Positions 15,182 through 18,632 of a DNA stretch of 64,000 bases are shown here, piece after piece (position 1 is the stretch's first letter; each line of letters starts with the position of its first letter). The notes under the pieces were generated by a model. The model did no database searches. It was not told the origin of the DNA and saw only the letters and a list, made by a program, of their open reading frames with translations. Position numbers and translations under genes: made by a program. The stretch is from Gloeobacter kilaueensis JS1 (lineage in GTDB: Bacteria; Cyanobacteriota; Cyanobacteriia; Gloeobacterales; Gloeobacteraceae): the NCBI RefSeq assembly GCF_000484535.1, contig NC_022600.1:2604001-2668000 (forward strand), given 5' to 3'.

Positions 15182-15222
15182 TCGCCAAGACACCCACGCA
15201 TATGCATGGAGAACCTCCAAAA

Positions 15223-15612
15223 ATGATGTCACTGTCAAAGCTTGCCGCTTCCTCGCTGGTTGCCCTGATCGCGGTGTCGGCCCTCGGTCTGGCCGCCCAG
15301 GCCAAGCAGATCGACGTCAAGATGGGCGCTGACACCGGTCAGCTCGTCTTCGTCCCCAACAAGATCGATGCGGCTCCCGGCGACACGATCAAGTGGACGC
15401 TCAACAAGGCCGGCCCCCACAACGTCGTCTTCGACGGTGCCAAGTCAGCCGATCCGACAGCGGCCAAGGCGATCAGCCAGACCAAGCTGCTCAGCAAGCC
15501 CGGCGATTCCTACACCTCGACGATCCCGGCATCCGCCAAGAAGGGTACCTATTCCTTCCACTGCGTACCGCACCTGAGCGCCGGGATGATCGGCACGCTG
15601 ACCGTTAAATAA
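15223..15612 (+). CDS. petE: plastocyanin precursor
   Basis: Periplasmic/lumenal copper protein that carries electrons from cytochrome b6f to photosystem I. The precursor has a signal peptide (SLSKLAASSLVALIAVSALGLAAQA) and a mature part of about 105 residues. Type 1 copper ligands are visible: His in GPHNVVF, and Cys, His and Met in FHCVPHLSAGM. The ATG-ATG at 15223/15226 lies after GGAG with acceptable spacing; an ATG seven codons upstream overlaps that site and is less likely. A strong terminator follows 33 bases after the stop, so it is probably a single-gene transcript. Confidence 0.96.
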   Translation: MMSLSKLAASSLVALIAVSALGLAAQAKQIDVKMGADTGQLVFVPNKIDAAPGDTIKWTLNKAGPHNVVFDGAKSADPTAAKAISQTKLLSKPGDSYTSTIPASAKKGTYSFHCVPHLSAGMIGTLTVK

Positions 15613-16525: not shown

Positions 16526-16726
16526 ATGGGTTTTGCCGACGTTACGATTGCTGAGCTGGCCGAAGATTATGGTCTGAGCCAGGACCAGATCTTTGCCCTG
16601 TGCAGACAATTTGGCATTCCCTTCCGCGATGCGCAGAGCTTCCTCGCCCTCGAGGACGCCAAGCAGATCATCCTGGAAGTGCGCAACCATCCTGTGGCCT
16701 TCCCCGTCGAGCCGCCCCGCAGTTGA
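16526..16726 (+). CDS. small conserved-looking hypothetical protein
   Basis: 66 residues starting GFADVTIAELAEDYGLSQDQ and containing FGIPFRDAQSFLALEDAKQI. The pattern of a short helix pair followed by a cyanobacterial-type LALEDAK segment resembles IF2_N/HTH-like small domains, but I cannot name a family with confidence. No signal peptide or membrane segment. It sits 77 bases after pyrH and 21 bases before psbV on the same strand, so co-transcription with either is possible. The Shine-Dalgarno is weak. Confidence 0.7.
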   Translation: MGFADVTIAELAEDYGLSQDQIFALCRQFGIPFRDAQSFLALEDAKQIILEVRNHPVAFPVEPPRS

Positions 16727-16747: not shown

Positions 16748-17212
16748 ATGTTCAGCAAGCAGTTTGGATGGTTATCGTTGATTGCACTCGTCCTGGCGGG
16801 CTGTTCCGGTGGTCAACCGGCAGCACAGGCTCCCGCAGATACAGCGGCGGCTGCCATTCCTGAGCTGGCGAGCTTCAGCCCCGCCGACCTCAAACAGGGC
16901 AAAAAGCTCTTTGCTGCCAACTGTGGGCGCTGCCACGTCGGCGGCCAGACCTACGGCACCTACGGCAGCACCGACGTCAACCTCTCCTTTGCCCGGTTGA
17001 GTGAATCGACACCGCCGCGCAATACGGTCGATGCCCTCATCGATTACATGAAAAAACCGACGAGCTTCGACGGCAAGACAGACCTCATTAAGACCGGTGA
17101 GCACGCCTCCTACGAAGGGCTGGGCGATGACAAATTGCGCTTGATCGCCGCCCACATCATCAAAGAAGGCAAGTCCAACCCAGGTTGGGGCAAAGGCAAA
17201 AATATTCGTTAG
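16748..17212 (+). CDS. psbV: cytochrome c550 (PsbV), bis-His type, lipoprotein-like precursor
   Basis: Extrinsic heme protein of photosystem II that stabilises the Mn4CaO5 cluster. The 154-residue precursor has one c-type heme site, CGRCHVGG (about residue 56), the PsbV hallmark TPPRNTVDALIDYMKKPTSF (about 87), and a C-terminus ending NPGWGKGKNIR. A His in GEHASYEGLG (about 119) sits where the second axial ligand of PsbV is expected. The signal ends in LVLAGCSGG, a lipobox, so the mature protein may be lipid-anchored. It forms a tandem pair with the next psbV-like gene, 16 bases apart. Confidence 0.9.
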   Translation: MFSKQFGWLSLIALVLAGCSGGQPAAQAPADTAAAAIPELASFSPADLKQGKKLFAANCGRCHVGGQTYGTYGSTDVNLSFARLSESTPPRNTVDALIDYMKKPTSFDGKTDLIKTGEHASYEGLGDDKLRLIAAHIIKEGKSNPGWGKGKNIR

Positions 17213-17228
17213 CGGGTGAGAAAAAAGC

Positions 17229-17738
17229 ATGACGAAGCGGAGCTGGTATGCCCTGGGGCTGAGCAGCCTGCTGCTGGCTGCCTGCAGCACCAATGCGGGG
17301 GGCGTGCGCGACAAGTACGTCAACATCAACCTCGCAGTCCGGGGACCGGTCGATCTACCCGCCGACACCAAAGGCAACCTCCAGACTTTTACCCCCGAGG
17401 ATATCTTCGCGGGCAAAAAACTCTTCGAGTCCAATTGCCAGAACTGCCACGTCGGCGGCGTAACCACCCCGAATCCCAAAGTTTCGCTGGCGCTCGCCAA
17501 ACTGCAGGGGGCAACGCCGCCGCGCGACAACATTCAGGCCCTGGTGCAGTACATGCGCAATCCGATGAGCTACGACGGCAAAGAAGAAGTCCCCAACTGC
17601 CGCAAGGCGACCTATCTCAAAGACGACCAGCTGCAGAATCTGGCAGCTTTTGTTCTGCGGGCCGCTCAAAAGGCAAAAGGCTGGGGAACGGCGCGCCTGG
17701 AGAGCAACCAGGACTTGATGAGCACGCCGCCCAAATAA
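17229..17738 (+). CDS. psbV2: cytochrome c550-like protein with predicted His/Cys heme ligation
   Basis: 169-residue PsbV relative. The heme site is CQNCHVGG (about residue 69) and the PsbV motif is TPPRDNIQALVQYMRNPMSYDGK (about 98). Where the neighbouring PsbV has His seven residues before an Asp-Asp pair, this protein has Cys (VPNCRKATYLKDD), so the second axial ligand is predicted to be Cys. A PsbV2 of Thermosynechococcus with His/Cys ligation is known, which guides the symbol. The precursor ends its signal in SLLLAACSTN, a lipobox. The C-terminal tail after KGWGTARL is longer than in PsbV. Its stop abuts the stop of the convergent DUF2993 gene. Confidence 0.85.
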   Translation: MTKRSWYALGLSSLLLAACSTNAGGVRDKYVNINLAVRGPVDLPADTKGNLQTFTPEDIFAGKKLFESNCQNCHVGGVTTPNPKVSLALAKLQGATPPRDNIQALVQYMRNPMSYDGKEEVPNCRKATYLKDDQLQNLAAFVLRAAQKAKGWGTARLESNQDLMSTPPK

Positions 17739-18527
17739 TCAGCGGCGGGCCGCCACTGGCGTCGCCTGAATTAAATAGGTGCCCTCCAGATTCAACAGGC
17801 CGGGCTGGAGACTGATGCGGCGCAACTCCACCTCGGGACCGAGCTGGATCGGCAGATTTACCAGCGCCTCGATCGGGGCACTCTCACCGTTCTGACCCAC
17901 CAGGCGCGGATCGACCAGGCGCAACTGGTGGGCGGAGGCGACGGCGATACCGCTGGCGAGCCTGAGGGCAGCCGGTTCACCGCTCGCCAGACGCACGGTC
18001 GCCGCCGCTTCCAGCCGATCGGCGAGCAGGCGCACGTGGGGATCGCGAATTTCCATCGGTATTTCTGTCTGTCCGTCGCCACCAAACTGGGCCGGCAACT
18101 TGATCGTCAGGCCCCGAATTTGATCTTGAAAAGTCTGGGATGCCAGGTAGGTATTCACATCCTGCTCAGAAAGGCTGAGGGCCAGATCTGCCCGCACGGG
18201 CCGCTCAAGCCTCAGACCACTGATCAATCCCGAGCGCACATTCAGCCGGATGTCAGAACCGCGCATCTGCAACGAGCGCGCCGGGATGCCCTGATAGACA
18301 ATATCGCGTCCCGAAATCTCGATGCTGCGAATCTGGCCATTGACCATCTCAGCATCCGGACCATTGACAGCGACGCGCAGATCCTGCACCTGCTGGACCT
18401 GGGTACGAATCCATGCCTGCAATAGGGGGCTGAGCAGATTGCTGAACACCTGAGATTGAACGGGTAGAGAAAACACACTCAACAGCAACGCAGAGGCCGT
18501 TGCCAACACTACGGTGCGCAGGCGCAT
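17739..18527 (-). CDS. DUF2993 family envelope protein
   Basis: About 262 residues with a signal peptide (MRLRTVVLATASALLLSVFS) and a body matching the DUF2993 pattern: repeated amphipathic strands such as GQIRSIEISGRDIVYQG, LQMRGSDIRLNVRSGL and LSLSEQDVNTYLAS. Family members include the mycobacterial LmeA, a periplasmic lipid-binding protein, so a lipid-binding role at the envelope is inferred only. Start set at ATG 18527 directly before the signal peptide; an upstream in-frame ATG would add a Cys/Pro-rich stretch with no signal character. It converges with psbV2, the stops touching. Confidence 0.85.
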   Translation of the reverse strand: MRLRTVVLATASALLLSVFSLPVQSQVFSNLLSPLLQAWIRTQVQQVQDLRVAVNGPDAEMVNGQIRSIEISGRDIVYQGIPARSLQMRGSDIRLNVRSGLISGLRLERPVRADLALSLSEQDVNTYLASQTFQDQIRGLTIKLPAQFGGDGQTEIPMEIRDPHVRLLADRLEAAATVRLASGEPAALRLASGIAVASAHQLRLVDPRLVGQNGESAPIEALVNLPIQLGPEVELRRISLQPGLLNLEGTYLIQATPVAARR

Positions 18528-18632
18528 CTTGCAAGCCCTCGGACATTCTCTCCAGCATGGCATATGGCCAGGAAGCGGCTTATGTCCAAAGGGATGCATT
18601 GCACATCAAGAAAACCTGACCTTTGGGCCAGT

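Follow-up and report, generated by a model that had tools for sequence, protein, structure and literature searches.

Within the window (the whole 64,000-nucleotide stretch of the Gloeobacter kilaueensis JS1 genome that was analysed) we identified two adjacent genes for c-type cytochromes, psbV and psbV2, with the following features.

16748 to 17212, + strand: psbV (cytochrome c550), 154 aa, divergent, a predicted lipoprotein and the His-ligated partner of psbV2 (assigned from PF14495 and its grouping in the tree)
16793 to 16804, + strand: lipobox Leu16-Ala-Gly-Cys19 of PsbV (from the sequence and a pattern test)
16922 to 16936, + strand: CxxCH motif of PsbV, Cys59 to His63 (from the sequence; invariant column)
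17102 to 17104, + strand: His119, the PsbV residue predicted to be the sixth ligand of the heme (from the conservation of this His in PsbV)
17213 to 17228, + strand: intergenic gap between psbV and psbV2, 16 bp, with a GAGAAA-like ribosome-binding stretch (from the sequence)
17229 to 17738, + strand: psbV2, a c-type cytochrome with predicted His/Cys ligation and predicted lipoprotein, 169 aa (from TIGR03046, 4lji and Foldseek)
17274 to 17285, + strand: lipobox Leu16-Ala-Ala-Cys19 of PsbV2, the predicted lipidation site (from the sequence and a pattern test against 29 other PsbV2)
17436 to 17450, + strand: CxxCH heme-attachment motif Cys70-Gln-Asn-Cys73-His74 of PsbV2, with His74 the predicted fifth ligand (from the sequence; His74 aligned with 4lji chain residue His51)
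17598 to 17603, + strand: Cys124-Arg125 of PsbV2, the predicted sixth heme ligand and an adjacent invariant Arg (aligned with 4lji chain residue Cys101; family conservation)

The two genes form a probable bicistronic unit. A plastocyanin-family gene is located a short distance upstream of psbV (15202-15612), a 66-aa frame with a sub-threshold IF2_N-like match lies between pyrH and psbV (16526-16726), and a convergent gene 3' of psbV2 (17742-18599) has a product that resembles the phospholipid-binding protein LmeA (PF11209, 94 bits). No convincing match to cytochrome c6 (petJ) was identified in the genome that contains the window; other Gloeobacter genomes have matches.

The protein encoded at 17229-17738 scores 215.7 bits against TIGR03046, the PsbV2 equivalog model (cut-off 148.35), and falls below the cut-off of the PsbV model TIGR03045 (114.2 vs 177.75 bits). 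PsbV2 of T. elongatus (4lji) is its top PDB sequence match (E 6e-41) and also the top Foldseek match of its AlphaFold model (E 4e-10), which was built from the window protein and two close relatives, is heme-free, and is of modest confidence (mean pLDDT 63.7). The ORF had been proposed, from the DNA letters alone, to encode a PsbV paralogue. It does belong to the c550 family and, by family model and closest structure, it is PsbV2, an already-known but little-understood photosynthetic cytochrome, and no Gloeobacter oddity.

The upstream ORF (16748-17212) has a match of 117.5 bits to PF14495 and reaches only 96.8 bits against TIGR03045 (cut-off 177.75). A score below the cut-off fits the description of Gloeobacter PsbV as poorly conserved (PMC7368068). 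The PsbV proteins of Gloeobacterales carry a GQTYGTY(G/N)STD insertion behind the heme motif, their segment following the ligand His is shortened, and they retain the WGxGK C-terminus of PsbV despite scoring below the TIGR03045 cut-off. The two ORFs of the window have one CxxCH motif each.

His74 and Cys124 of the window PsbV2 align to chain residues 51 and 101 of 4lji, and the alignment is gap-free around Cys124. Suga et al. are said to have reported in 2013 that His51 and Cys101 are the axial heme ligands of T. elongatus PsbV2. We take chain residues 51 and 101 of 4lji to be these ligands, and the numbering of our alignment agrees. In the families as a whole, the sixth-ligand position is occupied by Cys-Arg in 49/49 PsbV2 proteins (44/44 in the scored alignment and five by reading) and by His in all 48 PsbV. 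The claim that Cys stands where the second heme ligand should be His is upheld by this comparison of both families and by the alignment with 4lji, which puts Cys124 on the residue that is the sixth ligand in the solved PsbV2. The new result of the comparison is that the residue at this position separates the two paralogues without exception; the His/Cys heme itself was already known from T. elongatus, and the PsbV2 structure has been cited among cysteine-coordinated c hemes (PMC4423706). In one PsbV2 (L120:562-1191, genome G177) the C-terminus diverges abruptly past the ligand loop (AVNYPAPTAKRYGAGFQ), possibly due to a frameshift or an assembly error.

The original prediction arrived at Cys124 by measuring back from an Asp-Asp pair shared by the two proteins of the window (NCRKATYLKDD in PsbV2 and EHASYEGLGDD in PsbV). 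Both segments are present and the seven-residue spacing is real, but Asp-Asp is not a conserved landmark: other PsbV2s have WLTTEQ, WMPQEQ or WLARPE at that place. Chance thus has a part in the matching distances. The decisive evidence for ligation by His74 and Cys124 is homology, and the assignment that it predicts agrees with the conclusion drawn from Asp-Asp.

Between Cys124 and the last helix, the loop of the window protein has two residues fewer than that of most PsbV2. Given also the modest confidence of the AlphaFold model, coordination could be completed by another residue of the shortened loop, or by none, with Cys124 not serving as a ligand. We consider this highly unlikely, since Cys124 matches 4lji residue 101 directly with no gaps nearby, Cys-Arg is completely conserved, and the shortening lies C-terminal to the ligand and is common to Gloeobacterales as a group. 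The heme of the window PsbV2 is probably of low potential. The bis-His heme of c550 is itself low-potential, so the potentials of PsbV and PsbV2 may differ less than was assumed when they were expected to be very different.

Conservation of Cys-Arg throughout the family, in a loop that otherwise mostly varies, could also be the signature of an active site. The ligand Cys of the Cys-ligated hemes of SoxA and TsdA becomes covalently modified during sulfur chemistry. As in PsbV2, the hemes of these proteins have His/Cys ligation and a conserved Arg near the ligand, and in TsdA this Cys acts in catalysis, as do Arg residues close to it (PMC4423706). By analogy, PsbV2 might be no spare PsbV but an enzyme, in which the heme thiolate and the invariant Arg form the active site. 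Such an enzyme would have existed beside PsbV since the ancestor of the oxygenic cyanobacteria sampled, and in Gloeobacterales a lipid anchor would keep it at the periplasmic photosystem II, since these cells have no thylakoid lumen that could hold it in. We think this improbable. PsbV2 is monoheme and lacks the partner heme that TsdA uses, and the conserved Arg may do no more than make the thiolate, or a heme propionate, more stable. The Pfam scan returned no match to a SoxA or TsdA model, the Foldseek match is to c550 and not to SoxA, and neither method gave a hit that would relate PsbV2 to the catalytic heme domain of SoxA. Membership of PsbV2 in the SoxA/TsdA group is thus unsupported by sequence or fold match, and the likeness is one of analogy only.

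We surveyed PsbV2 in a sample of 386 genomes of the phylum. It is present above the cut-off in 41 of these, and a match of any kind at E <= 0.001 occurs in 167. In all 43 scored loci psbV precedes psbV2 on the same strand, and the tandem pair occurs in each of the nine Gloeobacterales genomes; the one exception seen (G011) has the two genes ~770 kb apart. A c6-like gene is found near the pair in 16 of 30 loci. The tandem pair had been highlighted as a feature of a basal cyanobacterium. The pair and its 16-bp gap are real, but there is nothing special about them, as the tandem arrangement is usual wherever PsbV2 occurs and the Cys is invariant in the family.

The tree, which is based on 117 columns and provides moderate evidence, places the Gloeobacterales PsbV in a PsbV clade that excludes the window PsbV2 (support 98/86). 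This clade contains two separate branches, one of the Gloeobacterales PsbV (99/96) and one of the PsbV from other cyanobacteria (96/84). The PsbV2 side, with the window PsbV2 included, is a single branch with weak support (63/79). The alternative is that the pair arose by duplication inside Gloeobacter or its order and that the Cys ligation is convergent, as could be suggested by the divergence of both Gloeobacterales proteins and by the lipobox that they have in common. This is rejected on the tree and the AU test: the Gloeobacterales PsbV groups with other PsbV, a forced clade of both Gloeobacterales proteins is rejected (p-AU 0.0148), and the window PsbV2 scores above the TIGR03046 cut-off. 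We regard a lineage-specific duplication as extremely improbable. Rather, the comparisons point to a duplication that predates the split of Gloeobacterales from other cyanobacteria, and to loss of PsbV2 many times afterwards, in many lineages. Because the split of the paralogues would be older than the divergence of Gloeobacterales, the ancestor of the cyanobacteria sampled probably already had a Cys-ligated c550.

The window PsbV2 has a lipobox Cys (LLLAAC19) behind its hydrophobic signal peptide. The strict lipobox pattern was found in 6/9 Gloeobacterales PsbV2 and in none of 29 from other cyanobacteria (Fisher p 3e-5), and in 8/9 Gloeobacterales PsbV compared with 0/28 elsewhere (Fisher p 2e-7); the sequences are related, so both values overstate independence. 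When the N-termini are read directly, a lipobox-like Cys ends the signal peptide in all nine Gloeobacterales PsbV. Among the remaining Gloeobacterales PsbV2, one (L041) has a canonical LSGC with a short N-terminus before it, one (L034) has an atypical LCAC, and one (L040, whose Cys-Arg is among those counted by reading) has no lipobox and a signal-peptidase-I type N-terminus. The genome that contains the window also has genes for both Lgt and signal peptidase II. We predict that the PsbV and most of the PsbV2 of Gloeobacterales are membrane-anchored lipoproteins. A search that covered mainly open-access papers returned no report of a lipobox on these proteins.

PsbO, usually regarded as an extrinsic protein that is soluble, served as a control. 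A lipobox is present in all 10 Gloeobacterales PsbO copies and in 17/21 parsed PsbO of other cyanobacteria. Thus, other cyanobacteria also have extrinsic proteins with predicted lipidation, and the contrast is confined to the c550 pair. The idea that all extrinsic proteins turned into lipoproteins only in Gloeobacterales was dropped, given how frequent the PsbO lipobox is elsewhere. The predicted PsbO lipoboxes, in Gloeobacterales and most other sampled cyanobacteria, include LTAC and LAGC (L069-L105), and the PsbO of Thermosynechococcus-like genomes is without one. PsbU-like matches in Gloeobacterales are weak (<= 29.5 bits) and may be other proteins. The predicted anchors on Gloeobacterales PsbV and PsbV2 suggest how a cell without thylakoids could keep oxygen-evolving accessory proteins at the membrane, rather than losing them to a wide periplasm.

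Very probably, psbV2 is expressed from a two-gene unit and yields a lipidated His/Cys monoheme cytochrome at the periplasmic face, accessory to photosystem II. The protein would be translated along with psbV, exported by Sec, and then cleaved and lipidated at Cys19. By homology to the solved structure, it would bind one c-heme at Cys70 and Cys73, with His74 and Cys124 as axial ligands. We infer that it is held on the cytoplasmic membrane, the site of the Gloeobacter photosystems, on the periplasmic side. Most likely it works for photosystem II as a low-potential, accessory counterpart of PsbV. It may be a back-up or conditional replacement for PsbV, or act as a sink for electrons close to the oxygen-evolving side; a role as a main electron carrier is less likely. 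Family membership alone would not establish an interaction of the window PsbV2 with photosystem II. In T. elongatus, transcripts of psbV and psbV2 both increase with irradiance (PMC5340862), a co-response that fits a photosystem II role of PsbV2.

Among known proteins, cytochrome c6 (PetJ) has the c-type fold and is a distant homologue of the window PsbV2. Its sixth heme ligand is Met, and it forms a separate clade in the tree (support 100/99). PsbV (cytochrome c550; TIGR03045, PF14495) is a paralogue with the same fold and heme-attachment motif, but its sixth ligand is His instead of the predicted Cys124. Closest is PsbV2 of T. elongatus (4lji), which has the same CxxCH motif, an aligned Cys followed by Arg, and a place downstream of psbV, and is the top structural match. 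Differences from this protein are the loop after the Cys, which is two residues shorter in the window PsbV2, and the gene cluster, which in the window is without petJ. In addition, a lipobox replaces the AxA signal-peptidase-I site, and the lipid anchor that it predicts is the main new element beside the known PsbV2.
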